From contig JADLSH010000358.1 in assembly GCA_016169945.1 (NCBI GenBank), positions 5,613,001-5,677,000 of the forward strand: a DNA stretch of 64,000 nucleotides. Reading direction: 5' to 3'. Positions 10,523 to 52,270 of this stretch are shown one piece after another. A program made the translations under genes and the position numbers. The notes below the pieces were generated by a model. That model did not search any database. It saw nothing but the letters and a program-made list of their open reading frames with translations, and was not told the origin of the DNA. Each line of letters begins with the position of its first letter. The first letter of the stretch is position 1. The stretch comes from Trachythela sp. YZ-2020. Lineage: Eukaryota; Cnidaria; Anthozoa; Malacalcyonacea; Clavulariidae.

Positions 10523-10531
10523 TCCTGCTAC

Positions 10532-10756
10532 CAGCCTCGTACCCAGGCGCTTTTAAGGAAAAGAAAATTTACGCATTCAGCTAATTTATAGAGATCAGTG
10601 GCTAAGCTGAGCGAGCGTGCGGGGGTGCTTGGGGAGGTCGCGAAACGCGGGGCATCTTGGGTATGTCTTGCGCTCGCTCAGCTTAGCCACTGATCTCTAT
10701 AAATTAGCTGAATGCGTAAATTTTCTTTTCCTTAAAAGCGCCTGGGTACGAGGCTG
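10532..10756. mobile_element. MITE, CAGCCTCGTACCC ends, 9-bp target duplication
   Basis: The 225-bp unit has long inverted arms (about 10532-10618 and 10671-10756) starting CAGCCTCGTACCCAGGCGC. It is bracketed by TCCTGCTAC at 10523-10531 and 10757-10765, an exact 9-bp duplication. The 13-bp tip CARCCTCGTACCC and the duplication length are the same as in the 8.7-kb helicase-bearing transposon at 41.7-50.4 kb. That makes this MITE a likely non-autonomous derivative moved by the same transposase. Confidence 0.88.
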
Positions 10757-10765
10757 TCCTGCTAC

Positions 10766-39240: not shown

Positions 39241-40312
39241 CAAACACCAGCTCCTAAACGAGTAAAGCGTTCACCGGAAGCAGCTGTCGATGATATATAC
39301 TGCCGAGCGAAGAGAATCCGTTTCTATGGAATGAGGCGGCACCAAATAATTTTGTCATTTGGCTGGAAAAATTTTCCAGGGCAAGAAATGTCGTAAAAGA
39401 ATTCGTGATTTGGCCATTGCTCAGTGCCATTTCCGCCCTAATCTCGCCGATAACCAAGGTCAAGACTTCGAGCCTTTACCCAGAGTCGGTGAATATTTAT
39501 ACCTTGTTCCTGGCCGAATCTGGTTCAAACAAGTCTAGCACCATTAGCCTTGCCGTGGACCCAATAATTGAGTATGTGGAGGAAAAACAAGAAACAGTAG
39601 TTGTAATCGAAGATTGTTCGAGAAGTGGCTTGTATGAACATCTATCATGCAATGGTCGCGATAATGGTAAAGAATTAAACAGTGAAATTCTTTGCAAGTT
39701 TCACGATGGAAAGCCGTGGCTAATGACAAAAGGAAGGCAAGGGAAACGAGATGGCCCGAAGGCAACCGGCGTTGCATTCTGTGGAGCAAGCCAACCACGC
39801 TCTTTCCTAAGCAAAGGAGTCTTTATAAGAATGGCGAAAGCAGGGATGGTCTTTTGGAAAGAATAATAATGGCAGCATCAATGCCAAACCTTCTTCCACC
39901 ACGAGAGGTTCAACAATATATAGAACAGTTAGAAACAACTGGAGTAAAGGAACTGTCTCGAGTCTTTGATGGCATATTTACGCAACATCAAAGCGGAGAA
40001 GCCAGGATATACGAACTGTCGGTCACTGCTAAAATCGTGTACAACGAGTACTGCAGCCAGGTGGTTGAAGAACAGAACGCAAGATTCCAAGGGGGCTCAG
40101 CTGAATCTGTACAAAGTACCTCGTCATCGAAAGGCACAAAGCATGTGTTACGACGTTTGGTCCTTCGGCATGTTCTCTTCCACGCCATTGACAAGGCACT
40201 GGGGATTATACCACCGGCATCAATACTGTCGTTACATATATCCAAAGAAAACGTCCATAGAGCAATCGACATCAATGAATATTCAGTTGATGTGAAATCA
40301 ATTTTGAAAGAG
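39241..40312 (+). pseudogene. DUF3987-like ATPase segment of the large transposon
   Basis: The best continuous reading begins near 39300 with EAAPNNFVIWLEKF and WPLLSAISALISP. It then has a degenerate P-loop ESGSNKSSTISL (about 39515-39550), VVVIEDCSRSGLYEHL and VAFCGASQPRSFL. A one-base loss near 39846 shifts the frame to DGLLERIIMAASMPNLLPP and onward. The pattern of P-loop, FCGxSQP and DGLLER matches DUF3987 proteins, P-loop ATPases found with primase/helicase functions. An ATG at 39241 is in a different frame, implying another shift near 39295. The exon ends at GAG before GTAAGA (40313) and continues at 41037 in phase 0. Confidence 0.7.
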
Positions 40313-41036
40313 GTAAGACAGAAGCTTGTTGTACATATTTCGCTAAATATTGCATCTTGAATTTCACGACTCACTAGCCAGCAACATAACTGGCTGCGAC
40401 AATCGTATTAAATATTTTTAGTCGAAGCATTTTTATGAAAGATTGTCTGCCATATATTATGTGAACACTTTTTCACATAATTATATACTATCTCGAACAA
40501 TTTGGAAAACACATACTCGTGAGTTTTTCAATACCTCACATTGCAACCCTTCCTCTCACTTGTGCAATTTTGAAAGTCTTTAAAAAAGTCACGAATATAA
40601 TGGACTGCTTTCAGTCAAACCATGCTGTTTTCTTTACTTATTAATTAAGCCATCATATTTATACTGATGTACTAATTGGAAATCTATTTATATATCCATG
40701 CTATGAATCCTAGTAGCAAATAGTATGGAAACGGCAATTAGCATGAAAAATATACAAATTCCGTACTAATAGCCATTTTCATACTATCAAAATGCTATGG
40801 AATAGAAACTTCCCGAATTTGCTTGAGTGCACATTAAACAATAGCTTGAAATCGAGGCGGATAATCCATTGTTAAATAAGCAGTTTTCATTGCCAGAAAG
40901 CAAATTCGGGAAGTATCTCTTCGCTTTTTGAATTCGGAAGTATTAGCAATCAATTTTTTCCCGCTGCTTTTGGGTGTTAGTAACGCATTAATAATTATTT
41001 ATAGATAAATTAATTAATCCATTCTTCTAAACTAAG
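40313..41036. other. Intron of the large transposon's gene, with MITE debris
   Basis: Donor GTAAGA at 40313 and acceptor ACTAAG ending at 41036. It includes a decayed relative (about 40497-40620) of the fold-back MITE at 1.1 kb and an AATTCGGGAAG inverted pair near 40815 and 40905. Confidence 0.6.
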
Positions 41037-41736
41037 GTTTGTGAAATGGATTCATCCAGTTTGGATACGGCAAAAGTGTTCAAGAAGATTCTTCTTCATC
41101 CTGGACAGTTTGTCTTGCCACGGCGCATCTACAGAGATTGTCGTAGTTTAGATTCAGATGGAACTTTAGCGAGGATGAATGAACTGGTTGAAGAAGGTCT
41201 TGGTACACTAGTCCAAAGAACGCAACAACAAATGGTTTTCTATAAGGCATTGCCGGTGTTTGACATTGAAGATACTTTACGGAGCTACGGAATAACCTTG
41301 GACGACTACCGCGGAAAATTCTTTGAAGTGGACTACAAAGTTATCGAAAGCCACAGAAGGGCCATTCACAATGTTAATCATGAGAGAGATCTTATTCCTC
41401 TGCTTAACGAAGACGATGAACGTGAAGAGGAAGGCTACATCAGTGATGCGGAAAGGGATGCGAGAGAGAGAAGTAGAAGAAGAAGAGAAGAGAAGAAGAA
41501 GAATGTCAATTGGGGCTATGCTCTGTTCAGCCACCTGTTACCTCTATTTTTCTGGTAATAAAGTGATAAATGTAAGAACAAGGAGAAGAATGACGAAGAA
41601 GAGGAAGATATTATACCCGTCAGATATTGGTCCAAGCAGAATGGATTACACTCCTCCGGCAGCCATGCTGGAAAATGTTAACAAGTTTTTGAAGAAATGG
41701 AAACATCAGAAACACGAAGAAGACCACGTTCTGCCT
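41037..41736 (+). pseudogene. Large transposon gene, middle part, cut by insertion
   Basis: Continues from the ATPase exon: VFKKILLHPGQFVLPRRIY, then IEDTLRSYGITLDDY and a long acidic/basic low-complexity stretch (EEEGYISDAERDARERSRRR). The first frame stops at 41558. The frame that reaches the insertion site ends with FLKKWKHQKHEEDHVLP, and its last codons are the left copy of the 9-bp duplication. The same frame resumes at 50427 beyond the inserted element, so this and the OTU part were one gene. How the first frame connects to the second (splice or shift) is not resolved. Confidence 0.65.
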
Positions 41737-41817
41737 CAACCTCGTACCCAGGGTTCTCTTAGGTCGGCCGCGCGTGGGAGAAGAGAACCCTGGCAAACAC
41801 TGCGCACGTGGCGACAA
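41737..41817 (+). repeat. Left 81-bp TIR with internal hairpin
   Basis: Begins CAACCTCGTACCC and ends GTGGCGACAA. Within it CCAGGGTTCTCTT (41748-41760) pairs with AAGAGAACCCTGG (41781-41793) across a GC-rich loop (GGTCGGCCGCGCG), so each element end can form a hairpin. Confidence 0.93.
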
Positions 41818-43109
41818 GAATTACGTACTCGCCGTATCTGTCCCGGGGGGTTACCAACATCAAGACACAGATCAAGAAGAGCCTGTTCGCAGGCTACTAT
41901 CAAGTGAATTCCGATTATGAAATTTTTTATGATTTATAAAACCGATTTAACAGACGTTTAAAAAAGGCACAATTTTATCAAATAAATGCAGACGTTGGTT
42001 AAAATGTTCCTATGAAATGGGGTTGAATGCTCAAAGGATTGGACATCTCAAATTTATGTTCAAGACTTGTATTTAATGGAACATGACTGGAAGCAGTGAG
42101 TGTTCTACATTCATCAAGTCTCATGGCTTTATTAAAGTGAGTGAATTTATATAAATACATTAGTCATTACTATCCTACATTTATACTGTTCTAATTTTTT
42201 TTGGGTCCTTGTTGATGTACTGTAAGAAATCAGAGGTATGAAATATGCACAATTCATTTCAAGAGGGTTTGAGTACACATATATTACACATGACAATTAA
42301 TATATATAAATCATATTGATGACCCAGTGGCCCTAGTATAAAATGTATAATTTAATAGTGTATTATGAATCAAAGTTCACATTTGGGTACAAGTGATGAC
42401 AAGACCAGGATATTACAGATTATAATAAATGATCAAAGTTAATAAGTTATACTGTTTTGCTTTTGGTTAAAGTTATTTACATAATGTGTTCTTATTACTT
42501 CATTTATTGTACTGACAAACATGTATGTCAACCAGGCATTATGTTGAGGTGTTGTACAAAGACAATGTGCATTGCAAGTTCTTCTATTATGATGCTCTTT
42601 GTTAAGAAGCCAAAATTAGTATTAGGCCCATTGAGGCGTGGGGCTAACCACTGAGATTTATAAACAATTATCTTACTCACTTGGGCTGGGAATTCTACAC
42701 TGACAGTTATTCCAGCAAAAGAAATTTGATAGTACTCAATGTGAGGATTCACGATATTGGTAGAACTTTTTCAGTAATCATGCCTGTCCTTCTTGCCCTT
42801 TTCTGGGGTTCATTGACTGTTATTGCATGAGTATACAAGTAAACTGGTACCAAGTGTGTCCAGGTGTGGAAACTATTTTGTTTTGCTAGGTTCAACTCCT
42901 AGTGCACACTGACAGTATGGTGCTGTTTCTACCAACTATTTTATATTTTCGATATATGCAGTAGGTATACATACCTAATTAATCATGAACTGCTATTGTA
43001 TAATGTACAGTGCTATAATTAGTGCATTTTCTCAAAATTAACAGCTGTATATCAGTTATTTTAATATTTTTACACATAGTTATATACTGTAGCTGTACTT
43101 GTAATGCAA
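41818..43109. other. Left non-coding arm of the inner transposon
   Basis: AT-rich sequence between the left TIR and the 3' end of the helicase gene. No coding frame is recognised; it should hold the helicase terminator and poly(A) signal. Confidence 0.6.
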
Positions 43110-44888
43110 TTAAGTAGCACAAACATCACTGATAATTTTGAAAAAAGCTTGTGCATGTGTGATTTCCCATATTTCAAATTCAGCAAACAATTCTGTAGCC
43201 GACTTGATCTTGTCACAATTTGAAACAATTAAGTCTATAAGTTCTAATGTTACCCCAGTACTTATGTCAATTCCTCCAAAGTTTGCACCAGATGTGCCTA
43301 ACTCAATCCTATACTTTCTTAGTAATGTCTGGATTCTTGCTCGCTGCTCATCTGTAACAACACGAATTGGCTGGTGTTCAGGTACTTGGCATGGCTTTGT
43401 ATCACTATCAGGTTGTATTTGTAACTTCTTACTTGTTGAGCAAGTCAAGCATTGGCAAATCTTTGAGCAGTTACTGCAACAACAGTGTCTGTCATAATTA
43501 ATTTCACTTCCATTGGATGCAGATCCCAAAAAAAACATAAGTTCCTTTCTCAAACAATTGGTTTCTTGTAAACAAAAATTTCGCATTGCAGTTGTCATCC
43601 CTGGTTTGTTGCTGGAAATATCCTGACCATTAAAGAACAAAGAGGCTTTTGCTGGTTTCTTATCTCGTCCAGCTCGGCCAATTTCTTGGTAATAAGATTC
43701 CATGGTCCTTGGCACACCAATATGTATGACATGTCTGACTTCAGGAATGTTAACCCCAATTCCAATCGCAATTGTTGCAAAAACTACACGAATGATCCTA
43801 TCTTCATTATTTCCCATTAGCTGTTTCATAATCTCGCGCTTCATGCTGTCAGTCTGTGGTGAGTGAAATTGTGCAAAGAGACAATTTTCTGGGCTTTTTT
43901 CCGTCTTGTCAGATGAGGGGAAATAGCTTGCCTCCCCAAGTTCGTCCATGAATAGCTTAAAAGCGTAGCCACACCACTTCAATGGGAGATATATTAACGT
44001 AAGAGGATATGCTGTTAAACTTTTTTTCAAATCTTTTGCAATTGGATGAAGTATTGCTTTATAGCTCTCCTCTCCTGTAGACGATGGCTTTCGTTTCTCT
44101 TTATTAAAGTAAATGTTTGGACGATCTAGGTTCGCTACCACCACGAGAGGATCGTCGAGAAGAAGAGAACTCATTAATGATTCTCTTACATATTTTGGAG
44201 CAGTTGCAGTAAGTACTAAGAATGGAGCGGAAGGGAAAATAGAGCCTAACTGCGAAAGTTTTCCAAAATCAGGTCGAAAATCAAAACCCCATTCTTCGAT
44301 AAGGTGTCCTTCGTCAACGACACAAGCAACAACACGCATTTGTAGGACTTCTGAAAGTAGTATTTGTCTACCTTCTCTACAAGAAATAAATGCCTCAGGG
44401 TGAGCATAAATTAGTTTAAACTTTCCGCCTGTAATGTTCCTCTCTGTTATATTATCAAGTGATAATATGTTCAATTCTCTAATTCCTTCTTCCCTTTCGC
44501 TGTCAATGTATTTTTCTATTTCGTCTTCATCTTCATCTACACCGACTATGTTATGTTTCTTAACTGTATTTAGAACTACAGCTTCGATTCCATGACTCTT
44601 TAGAATGGATAACTGATTTTCAATCAATGCATTCAGTGGTGTGATCACCAAAACGATAGACTCGTTCTTCACATTCGTGTGCTTGGCGTTACGGTAGTCG
44701 AATATGAAGGGAAGCAAATGAAATATGACAGATTTTCCATAACCTGTTGGAAGGACTCCGATTGTGTCCCTTCCTAAAAATAACGACTCGAGTACTTTGT
44801 ATTGTTTGACTTTTAGAAATAAATTTTGATAATTTGATACATCCAAAGCGTACCGAACAGCGTTTAAAAAAGTATTTAGCGAGTACAT
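43110..44888 (-). CDS. RecQ-like superfamily 2 DNA helicase of the inner transposon
   Basis: A single-exon frame of 592 aa. Helicase motifs in order: Walker A GVLPTGYGKS (44-53), VITPLNALI (81-89), motif II VVDEGHLIEEW (190-200, DEGH instead of the usual DEAH/DECH), motif III LTATA (226-230), motif V ATIAIGIGVNIPE (371-383) and motif VI QEIGRAGRD (401-409). A Cys-rich zinc-binding-like knuckle (CCCSNCSKICQCLTC) lies near 469-483, as in RecQ. RQC and HRDC domains are not seen. It would unwind DNA during excision, gap repair or copying of the transposon in the nucleus. It is transcribed away from the DUF6589 gene with 138 bp between the start codons. No frame damage is seen. Confidence 0.93.
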   Translation of the reverse strand: MYSLNTFLNAVRYALDVSNYQNLFLKVKQYKVLESLFLGRDTIGVLPTGYGKSVIFHLLPFIFDYRNAKHTNVKNESIVLVITPLNALIENQLSILKSHGIEAVVLNTVKKHNIVGVDEDEDEIEKYIDSEREEGIRELNILSLDNITERNITGGKFKLIYAHPEAFISCREGRQILLSEVLQMRVVACVVDEGHLIEEWGFDFRPDFGKLSQLGSIFPSAPFLVLTATAPKYVRESLMSSLLLDDPLVVVANLDRPNIYFNKEKRKPSSTGEESYKAILHPIAKDLKKSLTAYPLTLIYLPLKWCGYAFKLFMDELGEASYFPSSDKTEKSPENCLFAQFHSPQTDSMKREIMKQLMGNNEDRIIRVVFATIAIGIGVNIPEVRHVIHIGVPRTMESYYQEIGRAGRDKKPAKASLFFNGQDISSNKPGMTTAMRNFCLQETNCLRKELMFFLGSASNGSEINYDRHCCCSNCSKICQCLTCSTSKKLQIQPDSDTKPCQVPEHQPIRVVTDEQRARIQTLLRKYRIELGTSGANFGGIDISTGVTLELIDLIVSNCDKIKSATELFAEFEIWEITHAQAFFKIISDVCAT

Positions 44889-45026
44889 GTTCGTACTAGT
44901 GATTTTGTTTATCTGACAATAACGTTAAAAGGCGAACGCGGGAAAAGTGTACGTAATGTTACATGTCAGGGGAAACGCATTATTGAAGGGAAAAACCCCA
45001 TTTAATGGCGGGAAAATCATAAAATC
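44889..45026. promoter_or_regulatory. Divergent promoter with two E2F-like sites
   Basis: These 138 bp lie between the start codons of the helicase (minus) and the DUF6589 protein (plus). GCGGGAAAA (44938-44946) and GGCGGGAAAA (45007-45016) match the E2F/DP consensus TTTCCCGC on the complement. No clear TATA box is seen. If real, both genes would be switched on in S phase. Site function is inference from sequence only. Confidence 0.55.
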
Positions 45027-48000
45027 ATGTCGTCGAACGAACGAACACCTCGCAAGAGTCATTACTCAGGAAATAAAAACCTTTGTTGTCTTTGTGGAAA
45101 CGACAAACATAGTGGAAAGTTCACAGACGTATTTAGCAACGTGGGTAAAGCAAAACGGCTAGCAGAAACAATTCAGGACGTCTTGGGTTTAGTATTCGAT
45201 GACATTGACGGACAGCCAACCAAAGTCTGTCGAAGTTGTCATACAAAAATCGACGGGTTCTCTAAATTTAAGGCTTCAGCTTTAACCGTACGCAAAACAA
45301 TTCTTGGTCAAGTGACTTCCAAGAGATGCCTTGTGTTTTCTCTGTGCGAGTCTGGTCCGAATCCGAAAGCCAGTTGCACATCCGCCCTGTCTGATGTGGG
45401 GTCTGAAACGAATGCTGACCCAATTAATGAAGTATGTAATTATGACTTTGAATTGTATCATAGTTACACAACAGATAGCTGTTCGATATTGCTTAGTCTT
45501 GTTTTGTTTTGTTTCAGCTAGGAAAGTGTATTAAATGTTTACTTTAGCTGAGAAATATCAGCGAGACTATAGTAAAACAAACTGACATCATTCATATTAC
45601 CATTCATTTTCATTCAGGTTGTACAGCCACCTGGAAGTTCCCTGAGTGACCAAGATTTAGCCAGTCTTTCGAAAGCTATCGAATCTGGGTCACCATTGGT
45701 GATTGCAAGCACGGTAGCTGACATTAATGCAATAAGACAGCAGTTCATTGATAAACTTTTATACGAACTCAGGCAACGGTGTATAGACCTATGCGCCAGA
45801 TCATCACCATCCGTACTGAGAAAAAACGACTTTTCTGGTATGACTAAATTTGACTGGCAGAGTTTGGTATCAGAGATGTCAACTAATTGTCCATTACTGC
45901 TCGATGTTATGCTGGCTGTTATGAAGAATGCACCAAATAAAACAATCAACGATATCGCTCCTAGAATTGGCTTGTGCTATGCTATCATGATGCAAACCAG
46001 AAATCAAGAGCTAAGCTTGGTACAGCGATTGAATACAATCCTGTTGACTGAAGGAAATGCCAAAAAGAAGGTTAGTATACTGTGGTTCTATTTGTCAGTG
46101 TAGGTTACTTGTATTTTCCCAGCCGGAAATACATCAGGGAAACGCTCTTGGACACTGATTTGTCCATGCATGTGGTACCTTGACAGATTCCTGGGTACGA
46201 GGTTGAATAATACTGTGTATTTGGGTGTCTCACCTAAATGTAATTTAATCAACCTACTGACTATGTAACGTTCGTAACGTTTCTTCTTCTGATTCTTTGA
46301 TATCCGTTTCACAAATAAAAAATTGACATTCGTTCTGCAAACAGGTACAATACGTACTGACATTTTCACTGCTTATTATTTGTTCACCCATTGCACATCA
46401 TGTACAAAAGCTCTTTGACACCTAATGAGACTGTAATAGCAACTAGAAACAAATAAACAAATCAGTGAAAAAAATCATTAATTGATTATTTATATATTCG
46501 CATAAAGCGTCAAGCTTCCAACATATCAACCCAACATATTGGGAAAGATCTGTGTGTCAATTTGATTTATAAATATGACGTTTTTACAGCTTTTCAGGCA
46601 ATGCCAGAAAATGGGCTTCTCGTTGTCGCATCAGAGCAAAACAAATCTCTTGGACGTCGTAGGCAATCATTTTGCTGATGCCTTGATTGATGAAATCAAA
46701 GCTGGCAAAAAATTGCAGGGCACTGGTGACAACTGGGACCTACGAATTCATGTTCATGAGATGCAGACGTCTAATCAAAATGTTGATTTGCATTATTTTG
46801 CATCAAGCTTGATTGTTGAAAGAGTACCGTGCAAAAACCTCTCGACTATTGCGCCTCGGAAAGACGTGCGAACTCTTCCTAACTCAGCATTTATTCTGAA
46901 CAATTGTGAATCAATTAAGCTTAGAGAAGATTTCAAGGTGTTAGTTGGACGAGTTCTAATGGAAAATATACCAGATCTGTCCTTCATGAAGAGCATCATC
47001 CCATCGCATATTCCACAGGATTACCAGCGAGAAATGGCCTTGAAATCAACCATTGTTCCGTTGTCAATGCAATTAAAAGACGAGAAGAAATACGATGAAG
47101 TTGTGGATATTCTCGACTATTATGAGCAAGAATTGGAAGACATTTATGCTAAGGCAGGTGTCATTCAAAAGCCAGCAGCAACAAAAGAAGTGCAAAAACC
47201 CAAATCAATTGTAGGGCTAACTTCAGCAGCTGACCAGCCAGGAGCACACTTTAACAAGACGCACGAAAACGATCACATGAACGCCATCGCAGTGCCATTC
47301 GGAGGAGATCAGATGACTCGAGTCAGGTTTGCTGGTGCAAAAGATTTGCGATCCGGAGCACACACTGCAAAAGAACGACTCGACCACTGTAGTCCATTTT
47401 TCTCATCACCATTTCACACAAAAATGGCTTTTGTACAGGTATAGTACAGAATATATTCAGTCTTCAATCAACTATAGATTTCAAATCGAATCACAAACTC
47501 CATCTTGGTAATTCCTATGTTGGGAATACGAAACAATTTAAGATGCATGATGGAAATAACAAAAGATCAGTCGTGTACATACCATCCACATTTTGTCAAG
47601 GATTTCTACCCATTACCGTCACAACACACCAAAACGCAACTAATTATAAAATACATTAGTAAGATATATTACGTACAATCAGTGAATTTTTTCGTTAAAA
47701 CACTTGATAGTAAGTTACACAACATTAAAAAAGGGGTAGGGGAAATTATAAGGGTTGAAGTACCTGTCGTTGTATCGTTTTATCAACGGAATGTAATATG
47801 AGCGCTATCGATCCACTAGAACCGCAAAATATGTAGGATCGAACAAAGCAGGCTTACGATTCTGCGAATTTTAACAATATCAACTTATATTTAAAATATT
47901 TAGTTCATCTACAGTTTACTTCATAAGCCCGGGTCTGTAAGAGAAGTTGGAACGCTGAAGTTCTTCCGCGAGAAATATAACCGCAGAAATGTGACACCAG

Positions 48001-49603
48001 AAAAGGTAACCAAATCGTACGAAGGGTCAGAGGATTTCCTTCTGAGTGTTGGCAAAGCTTACCTTCTAGAAGCGGCAATGGTGTTTTGGGGAATGGAAAA
48101 GCTCGATGATCACCCAACAGAGTATGTACCACCAGCTGGAATTGTCCACATGACCAAGGAGAAGAAGAAAGAATATTTCGATCTGGTTGTCGGAAAATTT
48201 GTGGACGAGTTTGTGATACCAGATCCTGACAAAGAAAATGAGAAACAAAGAAAGAGTGCTGAAACAAGCTCATTTGAAGCAGACAGAGTGAGGTAAGACT
48301 TACACAAAACAATTATTAAGATCAATATACATAATATATTGTGGAAAATACCATGATTATTTACAAATTGTATCTAGTTATTTATTTATTTTTTACTGAT
48401 GAAGATTATGGATCGATAATTTTGATAAATAAATAATCATAGTACTTTCTACATCAGTCAAATTAATTAAAATAATTATTGTCAAATAACGGCAATGAGG
48501 TAGCATAAACTATAATAAATTTCTGGATATTGGTAGGCCTCCAATGTCAGAACAATAATGTCCACATGCACATCATAGCATCGGATGGTATCCATAATTG
48601 ATAATGATACTAATATACTGTGTGTTTGACAGATTCTATGGATTGAACATGCTTGACCTTTATGTATTCCTAATGCAATTGATTGACACAACTAAAGAAG
48701 GTAACACTTGTATTTAATTTGAGAAATGCAGTTTGTTTTCAAAATGAAACCATGCAGTCAACTATATAAATAACCTGTACATAACATATCCACTGGCTAG
48801 AGCTAGCTGAGACCCGGACTCCTGATTGAATATGATAAAATTGCTCTACAGTATTTAATAATAAAACAAAAAATAAAACTGACAGGTAATTATTTATTCG
48901 ACATGACAAAAATAAAACAATGTCATGGTAAAATGTTACTGTAAATTTATGATGCAATCCCTCTTTTACTTTGGATGTACTAGCGGCATGTTATAGAATC
49001 ATAATACCGTACATTGTATGTCATTTTCAAGGTGATGGGAAAAGGAATAACATTAACAAAAAGCGACTCTTAATGTATTTCAAGTCGTCAAGTTCTTGCC
49101 AGAACTACTCTGTTGAAATGTTCACCAGCATCGCCCAAGTTGAAGCTATGTTGTCTGAAGAGATGGCCCACAGACTGACATGGGGTCAGTTTGTAAACTG
49201 GAACGGTGGTCAAGGCAAAAATATAGCTTGCGATATGGCCCAGGAGATATGCAACAGGGTGAGCAAGGATGTTGTGAAAGGAATGGGGGCAAACAAGACC
49301 ACTAAAGCAATGGTAAGGGCATCAAGGGCTGCTGCAGGTGTCCGACAAATCGTGCAGGCAATGGACGAGGCATCAAACGTAAAGCAAATGTCCAAGAAGC
49401 ACAGCCATAAAAAGTCAAATGAAGATGAGTTGCTGATGTTCCAAGACTTGAGAAAGCTGAAGCCCTTCGCCATTACAACTGGTCGATATCACCACCATTT
49501 TCCTGATATTGCTCTTTCCCCAACAAATAACATCAACATGAGTAATTTCTTCGCATGGCTACAAAAGCACAAGAAACAAATTTCAATGGGATGTAAAAAA
49601 TAG
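45027..49603 (+). CDS. DUF6589 protein, likely transposase, six exons
   Basis: Exons: 45027-45431, 45618-46070, 46590-47438, 47904-48292, 48633-48700 and 49032-49603. All junctions are GT-AG, phases agree and 2736 nt give 911 aa with no stop. Exon 1 has a ZAD-like zinc knuckle (CCLCGNDKHSGKF ... KVCRSCH). Exon 2 carries a helical RIGLCYAIMMQTRNQELS block. Exon 3 has GTGDNWDLRIHVHEM and DLHYFASSLIVERV, characteristic of DUF6589, then GGDQMTRVR. Exon 4 has KPGSVREVGTLKFF and FRE..NRRNVTPEKV. The C-terminus is basic. DUF6589 proteins are widespread, repetitive and uncharacterised in invertebrates and fungi. The Asp residues in GDNWD and GGDQ are candidate metal ligands of an RNase-H-type transposase (inference). 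It pairs divergently with the helicase. Confidence 0.88.
46190..46205 (-). repeat. Solo transposon tip in intron 2
   Basis: CCTGGGTACGAGGTTG is the complement of the inner element's own terminus (CAACCTCGTACCCAGG). It occurs once inside intron 2 with no partner end nearby, so it is probably the remnant of a related short element. Confidence 0.6.
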
Positions 49604-50336
49604 GTAATTACCTAACTTGAAAATCATTGACCAAATTCATTGCCATGACACAGAATGTTTGTTTTGAACTTTTTTACTAAAGGCTGATTAGCATTTATAT
49701 GCAGCAACTTCTGGCTAAGTTTAAACAATCAATTAAACACTGTTATTTTACACTGTACTGTATGCTATGTTGATATCAATTTATAGTTGTTTAAGACATA
49801 TAAAACTCATGCATTGAGCATATCAGATGCACATATAAAAATGTGAATTGTAATATATATTGTAATATATTTGTAATAATTGTAATATATATTTATGTTA
49901 AATATATTTCAGTTTGGCAATAAATATATATTGTAAAACAATGAGTGTAGAAAAAGGAGAAAACTATGTCGCTACAGATATATTAGGCAGAATCTTAGAC
50001 AGATTTTAAAACATAATTTATAAGCTTATGGCCAACGACAAAATCCAATAAGATAAGACAGATACCTTTTCTCACGAACTCACACAGTTAAACACTAACA
50101 CACGCTACATGATCCAAAACAGTTCACATATGAGATAATATACTCTTCTCTGATGCTCATGTTGTGGCTTTTTATCCATTTGTACCGACCAAAAAGCAAA
50201 AATATTATAAAAATATACACAATAATTCTATCAACATATCGAAAGTATTGCAAAACAACTTCTGTCGATGCGGTACAAACGCCCCCCCTGCGCATATAAA
50301 TCACGTGACAAAATAATCCAGAAATCTTGGATTATT
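49604..50336. other. Right non-coding arm of the inner transposon
   Basis: AT-rich 3' region of the DUF6589 gene. A 14-bp perfect hairpin, GACAAAATAATCCA (50307-50320) with TGGATTATTTTGTC (50328-50341), abuts and overlaps the inner edge of the right TIR. Confidence 0.65.
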
Positions 50337-50417
50337 TTGTCGCCACGTGCGCAGTGTTTGCCAGGGTTCTCTTCTCCCACGCGCGGCCGACCTAAGAGAA
50401 CCCTGGGTACGAGGTTG
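50337..50417 (-). repeat. Right 81-bp TIR, identical to the left
   Basis: Exact complement of 41737-41817, including the internal hairpin CCAGGGTTCTCTT / AAGAGAACCCTGG. It ends ACGAGGTTG directly against the 9-bp duplication at 50418. Confidence 0.93.
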
Positions 50418-51644
50418 GTTCTGCCTAGTCAAGCTGTCGAAGAGTTAAATAAGTTAAAAACACATATAAAAAAAGGATGCTTATCAGACATTCCACCTTC
50501 AGGAGGAACAAACAGAAACGAAGCATTGCACAAAATATTACGCAAAAATATTTCTAGGCAAAGGATTGGTGTGCAGTTGGCACTGGCACTGCTTGGAATA
50601 TCATTTTATATTTGGAATGAGAAGAGAAGAAATTCAGAAACTAAAAAAGTCAATCGTTCTATTCAGACTTACTATTCATCTTTTCTAGCCACTTCTAATA
50701 CATCCACAACTGAAAGATTTGGAATCTCGGCTTCAGAGAAGAGCGAAACGACGAGTGAAAATCAGGGACTGGGATATTGTTACGACTATTCTGGTGATCT
50801 CGATGAAGTTTTTAACAATGAAAATCAGGAGAATGACAACAAAGAGAGTGAAAGTGATGCTGATAGCGATGCTGAGTGTCTTCTTCATCAAACCATTTCA
50901 GCTGCGTCTTCTATTTTGAATACAGTGTTTCTGAAAATGCATGTTGTTTTAGACCAATCCAAAAAGACGAACAGTAACCCGCAGAATTTAGCCAAAGACA
51001 TACATTTTATGAAAAGTGCGTTGTTGCTCTTAAGTAATTCAAAATTTACGCCACGTGAAAACACTAGTGTTAAAGTGGATGCAGTTTTAAAAGCATATGG
51101 TCTTGAACGTGTGTCGGTTGCCAAAGACGGGAACTGCTTATTTGCATCAGTGTCGTTTTCCCTCCTGCAGTTCCTAGCAGGTGATGGTTGTTCCGTAGAA
51201 TTGCGAGAGCATCTAAATTCTGTTGGTATATTAGGTGGCAAGCCCTTGCCTGAACTTATTGCATTACTAAGAAAGCTAGTTGTTAATGAATTCCTCAGTT
51301 GCAACCTTGAAGAATACTCCTCCTTTCTCTTATCAGCTGAACATTCCTCGTGCGAAGAGACTGCGAAAAATTTTAATCAAGTTAGGAAACGCGGTTATTT
51401 TGGCTCTGTCCAATATACTTCGCACTGGTTTCGTCGTACCTCCCTTGAAAACTATCCAATCATTACAATAGTTCCCAAAAATGAGCCTGTATCTAACGTC
51501 CCTCTTTACCTGGCATTTGAGCAAATCGGGCCTGGTCATTACGATGGTGTTACTGAAAGTAGAACAAAAGAAGAATGCGTCAATGATAGAGAAACCAAAC
51601 TGAGACGGAAACATCTACAGAAAATATTCAAACAAACCGTTTAG
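50418..51644 (+). pseudogene. Large transposon gene, distal part: GTNRNE block and OTU protease
   Basis: Resumes the interrupted frame with VLPSQAVEELNKLKTH (the first residues are encoded by the duplicated 9 bp). GGTNRNEALHKILRK and GVQLALALLGISFYIWNEKR follow. The N-E block resembles the C-terminal acidic helix region of RNase-H transposases (inference). After an acidic spacer comes an OTU cysteine-protease domain: VAKDGNCLFASVSF (catalytic Asp-Gly-Asn-Cys, about 51120-51160), RGYFGSVQYTSHWF and GPGHYDGVT (catalytic His, about 51530). OTU domains deubiquitinate proteins and occur in several eukaryotic mobile elements. This part is open, but the gene as a whole is split by the inner insertion. 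The upstream part of this open frame (50268-50417) belongs to the inserted element. Confidence 0.75.
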
Positions 51645-52270
51645 AGAAAACTGTTTGTCGATGCGGTCAGGGAGGGGCGAAAAATAAGCTAACAAGAAAA
51701 TTTTGCTCAGAATACAAATCTGGTTGTAAATGCTATCAGAATTTGAAGGGTTGCACTTCCGACTGTGGGTGTTACAACTGTGCAAATACGTATGGTTCTC
51801 GAGTAGAATCTTCTGCCGAAAGCCGTCCAGGTAATCCTCAGCCCAGAAAAAGGCGAAAACATGGTTTAGGGAAAGAAACCGGGAGAGAATTCATGATTGG
51901 AAGGGGAGAAAACATAGCGGCTTCTCGTTGGACTTTATTTGAAAAGCTTCTATGCATGGAATGTGTCCATAACATGGAAAATAGTGATGACCTTGACAGA
52001 CTAACCGAGTGTTACAATAACATAATAATTTCTTTGAAAAATGGAGCTTTGAAATGCTCTGATGAATTTTTAGCTGTTGTTGGTCTTCAGGCGATTGAAA
52101 CAAAGGAAAGCAAGTCTGTTGAAAGCCTTCTTAAACGATTCTGTGATGAGAACATGGCGTTTAATGAAGCAATGAAACAACAAATAGAATTGAACGTCCT
52201 GTTACTGCAGACAGTGACAAAATGTTTTAACACAACAGATAGTCAAGTCAGTAACTATATCAAGCAGTAA
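51627..52270 (+). pseudogene. CXC (tesmin-like) cysteine-rich C-terminus, frameshifted from OTU
   Basis: The frame opens at NRLEKTVCRCGQG, +1 relative to the OTU frame, which stops at 51644. It has FCSEYKSGCKCYQN and GCTSDCGCYNCAN (about 51700-51785), the spacing of CXC/CRC zinc-binding domains that bind DNA. A helical acidic tail follows, ending at TAA 52270. The overlap with the OTU frame without a stop, and with no initiator upstream of the Cys-rich block, argues that a small indel separated one protein into two. A start at 51743 would lose the first half of the cysteines. Confidence 0.7.

Follow-up and report, generated by a model that had tools for sequence, protein, structure and literature searches.

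The locus described here raises the question of whether a RecQ-type helicase gene and a DUF6589 gene that lie side by side in the genome of Trachythela sp. YZ-2020 form one mobile element and, if so, which of their products moves it and to which known kind it belongs. The window, i.e., the whole stretch of 64,000 nucleotides that was analysed (contig JADLSH010000358.1), contains an element of 8,681 bp (41737-50417) that is very probably a complete AcademH-type transposon, in which the DUF6589 protein would be the DDE transposase and the helicase would be its accessory. The ends of the element are inverted and identical across exactly 81 bp, and GTTCTGCCT lies directly outside both of them with no third site in the window, in which its reverse complement is also absent. 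The perfect terminal inverted repeats and the exact duplication that had been claimed in a preliminary description of this DNA were thus both recovered, as follows:

41728-41736, no strand: left target-site duplication GTTCTGCCT
41737-41817, plus strand: left terminal inverted repeat of 81 bp with the tip CAACCTCGTACCC
50337-50417, minus strand: right 81-bp terminal inverted repeat, the same as the left one
50418-50426, no strand: right target-site duplication GTTCTGCCT

A search of the genome (578 Mb) with the terminal repeat gave 43 matches, 32 of which form 16 end pairs according to their position and orientation, the window element included; the other 11 fall into eight places and are nearly all partial. 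Additional copies that have CARCCTCGTACCC at their tips and lie between 9-bp duplications, as had been anticipated, do exist, since 12 of the 15 other end pairs have exact 9-bp duplications, with no match of 10 to 12 bases. In the case of the remaining three, the duplications are inexact, with one mismatch in C195, two in C82c and five in C277, the last of which is counted as a pair with no duplication and with a right end that aligns poorly (34.8% difference). The 13 exact duplications, including that of the window, are all of different sequence and therefore represent separate insertions; neither a strong target motif nor a TTAA consensus was found among them. Because so many pairs carry exact duplications of differing sequence, an origin by chance or as part of a larger segmental repeat, the latter raised in the preliminary description itself, is disfavoured. 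The window element is real, well delimited and young, which is in agreement with the earlier claim.

Most of these copies are shortened. One deletion of the middle of the element (1578/6547) is common to 11 of the 15 other pairs, C384 has a different internal deletion (1794/6676), and C195, C82b and C82c retain more of the element, but are interrupted. The shortened copies keep parts of exons 5 and 6 of the DUF6589 gene, which are stop-free in several of them, and have lost the front of both genes. At C110:4079641-4086974 (7,134 bp), the common deletion is accompanied by approximately 3.5 kb of unrelated sequence, located where the deletion lies. With gaps ignored, C390 and C320 are each identical to C158 across about 585 terminal bases, and therefore members of the family have moved recently. 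Most simply, the copies can be read as a young family whose shortened elements are moved in trans by a few complete ones. The window copy itself might be a dead relic that is intact by chance and has no movement of its own today; this is unlikely considering that its 81-bp ends and its duplication are identical and that C390 and C320 point to recent movement in the family, even though three observations favour it. Its nearest copy, C320, differs by 1.0% across the terminal 600 bp, the predicted DUF6589 protein deviates at two near-invariant columns (E548, where 27 of 28 sequences have D, and E467, where 26 of 27 have W), and a helicase search, which gave at least 79 matches (74 of 1,556 candidates scored), yielded no complete open helicase of this family other than that of the window among the matches scored.

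The two genes are divergent, with their start codons 138 bp apart, and are composed of the following parts:

43113-44888, minus strand: RecQ-type helicase, 592 aa, open (DEAD 1.7e-14, Helicase_C 2.5e-12)
45027-45431, plus strand: exon 1 of the DUF6589 gene, ZAD zinc domain (Pfam zf-AD 9.4e-12)
45618-46070, plus strand: exon 2, no Pfam match
46590-47438, plus strand: exon 3, DUF6589 (5.3e-11), candidate catalytic D333 and D526
47904-48292, plus strand: exon 4, DUF6589 (0.0032, below the Pfam cut-off)
48633-48700, plus strand: exon 5
49032-49603, plus strand: exon 6 including the stop, DUF6589 (9e-16), candidate catalytic E793

The open RecQ-like helicase of 592 aa that had been claimed was reproduced: its frame runs from stop to stop over 43113-44924, the first ATG at 44888 gives 592 codons, and both the DEAD and Helicase_C domains were found. 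Among the solved structures, RecQ and WRN were nearest to it, followed by RECQ1 and BLM, while its score against NCBIfam recQ_fam (219.1) was just below the cut-off (219.8). The predicted DUF6589 gene, with six exons, 911 codons and GT-AG introns, was likewise obtained again, but because 32 combinations of splice sites leave the frame open even if the first three donors are held constant, the exon borders are a prediction. In the 911-aa protein, an N-terminal ZAD (zf-AD) domain is followed by DUF6589. Residues 200-911 as a query found 27 proteins (8,000 candidates scored), all of which match DUF6589 and three of which match zf-AD as well, and a profile search gave 191 matches, 120 of which were listed. 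The minority of the listed entries that bear an organism name belong to the cnidarians Montipora, Dendronephthya, Desmophyllum, Hydractinia and Clytia and to one lancelet. The annotations met among the database matches include ‘uncharacterized protein’ and ‘ATP-dependent DNA helicase Q1-like’. In EukProt, gene16282 (DUF6589, P0202) and gene16284 (helicase, P0106) have almost consecutive numbers, which, if they come from a single source, would suggest that such a gene pair exists in another genome as well. Exon 6 had no match in plasmids and phages, nor did two DUF6589 relatives have one in NCBIfam.

The proposal that DUF6589 is the transposase, made in the preliminary description, is supported by structure prediction. 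The computed folds of two DUF6589 relatives contain an RNase-H fold and resemble, with middling Z scores, Hermes and RAG1, which are DDE transposases that have a helical insertion, and the conserved D-D-E positions of the alignment are also found in the window protein as D333, D526 and E793, which likely form its triad. The resemblance to Hermes (hAT) and RAG1/Transib lies in the predicted RNase-H core and in its helical insertion, which precedes the last acidic residue, whereas at the sequence level the DUF6589 profile, compared with solved structures at E values of up to 1, matched two ZAD domains alone (7po9, 2.1e-6; 1pzw, 0.05). The conserved H552 and H562 lie after D526, at a spacing that, by eye, is unlike the C/DxxH motif of hAT, which is located between the second D and the last E according to the available text of PMC10045372. 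Based on these models, DUF6589 is likely the transposase of this helicase-bearing lineage.

A reversal of roles, in which the helicase would be the mobilising enzyme of a rolling-circle or peel-off type and DUF6589 the accessory, was also considered, as a helicase is encoded and hairpins are present at the ends, and Helitrons likewise have both a helicase and a hairpin at their end. We regard it as extremely improbable: identical terminal inverted repeats and duplications of a fixed length are marks of DDE enzymes, the predicted folds of the DUF6589 relatives are like those of DDE transposases, and a Pfam scan of six translated pieces revealed no Rep/HUH domain. With DUF6589 as the transposase, the protein, having the RNase-H fold, the helical insertion and the candidate triad, would bind the terminal repeats, most likely in the form of a dimer or a larger assembly that may be aided by its N-terminal ZAD domain, and would excise the element, presumably by cut-and-paste rather than by copy-out. 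The ends would then be joined to target strands nine bases apart, the repair of which would give the 9-bp duplication, while the divergent RecQ-type helicase may assist by unwinding the DNA at the ends or in the joined product.

The preliminary description held that a 9-bp duplication did not fit Academ, which proved to be wrong. According to the portion of PMC10045372 that deals with the superfamily, AcademH makes duplications of 9 or 10 bp and AcademX of 3 or 4 bp, a difference that is tied to the helicase of the former and the nuclease of the latter; a helicase with a 9-bp duplication is therefore a combination that has already been described. The 9-bp length was found in the window, in most of the other end pairs and in a second family (see below), and the pairing of a helicase with a putative transposase, which the predicted folds and the candidate D-D-E residues suggest to be of the DDD/E type, was found in the window and, in the form of DUF6589 exons, at eight of nine further helicase loci. 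AcademX has the superfamily name in common with AcademH, but its short duplications and its nuclease, as given in that description, separate it from the window element, which has a helicase and no nuclease domain in the six translated pieces scanned. KolobokH also combines a DDD/E transposase with a RecQ helicase, but, as outlined in the accessible part of PMC9587614, it is said to occur only in fungi and its superfamily makes 4-bp TTAA duplications, which is why it does not fit a family with 13 differing 9-bp duplications. In hAT elements, the duplications are 8 bp long and in RAG1/Transib 5 bp; the former length differs from the exact 9 bp of the present family. We therefore place the window element, by the description of AcademH, as a further member of that known kind, since it agrees with the AcademH features that could be compared.

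The element might instead belong to a separate, undescribed superfamily that came to resemble AcademH by convergence, in its helicase and its long duplication, and has another transposase. DUF6589, which Pfam labels as ‘of unknown function’, occurs in no paper of the literature searched and hence is linked to Academ in none of them, RecQ helicases are also present in KolobokH according to the same part of PMC9587614, and AcademH is known here by its description, with the tips and the ZAD domain lying outside the comparison. Nonetheless, convergence is very unlikely, as both the helicase and the length of the duplication match the account of AcademH in PMC10045372, and the title of a cited work, Kojima 2020 (Mob DNA 11:15), places AcademH in animals and fungi. 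A passage of PMC10799480 names AcademH as a helicase source in fungi. The literature search gave no paper on the Academ superfamily in cnidarians. Moreover, because DUF6589 was found in none of the papers searched, an equation of it with the transposase of AcademH may not have been published, although Repbase, InterPro or Kojima 2020 might contain it.

Nine further loci were picked from the helicase matches and then examined for DUF6589 exons, which adjoin the helicase in all except C110b, where none were found within its 10 kb. Six of the loci (C123, C164, C224, C241, C390b and C82d) have the divergent gene order of the window. The genes are instead arranged tail to tail in a family that is more distant (C156, C334 and another set in C241; helicases approximately 32-35% identical), which argues against the divergent layout as a general mark. 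C241:439505-441277 contains an open helicase frame of 594 aa that is 64% identical to that of the window and has adjoining DUF6589 exons; no counterpart of exons 5 and 6 was found further along in the 20 kb examined. When the nine loci were scanned blindly for long inverted repeats flanked by duplications of 8 to 11 bp, none with a duplication was obtained. The tip CAACCTCGAACCCAGGG is located 1.7, 1.7 and 2.9 kb past the helicase end in C241, C390b and C110b, respectively; the tip search of the nine loci thus gave a single end for three of them, and longer sequence led to one complete pair. This pair delimits an element of a second family at C390:643370-656730 (13,361 bp), which has matching ends, both genes in a recognisable form and an exact 9-bp duplication, GTCTACTCT. 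Its helicase is 58 and 66% identical to that of the window in two pieces and contains stops, for which reason the element is not intact. The gene pair, the tip type and the duplication length go together in two families.

Both ends of the window element also carry inverted repeats, and the tip recurs inside it:

41748-41793, plus strand: inverted repeat with the 13-bp arms CCAGGGTTCTCTT and AAGAGAACCCTGG, in the left terminal repeat
46190-46205, minus strand: lone tip copy CAACCTCGTACCCAGG in intron 2 of the DUF6589 gene
50307-50341, no strand: right subterminal hairpin, 14-bp arms GACAAAATAATCCA and TGGATTATTTTGTC

The 13-bp inverted repeat is also found inside the right terminal repeat, and the DNA fold of the 81-bp repeat was weakly better than that of its shuffles (z -1.94; 7 of 200 shuffles were as good). 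The right hairpin has 14-bp arms in 14 of the 16 family elements, including that of the window, and 13-bp arms in C277, whereas C195 has another palindrome in its place. The second family, whose helicase is roughly 60% identical to that of the window, has an 11-bp form of the hairpin that keeps the core, AAATAATCC. As copies within one family share descent, only the second family offers separate support for the hairpin.

Genome-wide, the tip CARCCTCGTACCCAGG was found 2,795 times (1,399 forward and 1,396 reverse) and its reversed control not once. A 225-bp foldback element with CAGCCTCGTACCCAGG tips and exact 9-bp duplications, TCCTGCTAC, lies in the window at 10532-10756 (10523-10765 with its flanks), and a foldback element of 178 bp that likewise has the tip and an exact 9-bp duplication, GGTCGCACC, is nested in the second-family element of C390. 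We infer that the majority of the 2,795 tips mark short elements of this sort, which would be moved by the transposase of the window element or by a sister of it. It is conceivable, albeit quite unlikely, that the RecQ-type helicase acts on the end hairpins, so that transposition would proceed via an unwound or hairpin-extruded end, a coupling that would set the long 9-bp stagger, and that this machinery would also serve the thousands of short elements with the same tip.

What these results add is that DUF6589, a family of unknown function, is tied within measured borders to a likely role as a DDE transposase beside a helicase. Animal gene models that go by the names ‘uncharacterized protein’ and ‘ATP-dependent DNA helicase Q1-like’ can accordingly be screened for genes that may come from transposons. 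Interest attaches to the function proposed for DUF6589, to the ZAD domain and to the end hairpins on an element with its own helicase, and an open gene pair together with the numerous tips in one genome would allow tests of what a helicase contributes to DDE transposition. As for the surroundings of the element, open frames flank both copies of GTTCTGCCT (39405-41736 and 50427-52270), which places it inside another coding repeat or gene. The left frame matches DUF3987 (1.4e-10), and the right one has a weak otubain-like match (0.0089, below the cut-off) and a CxC-like stretch, CTSDCGCYNC.
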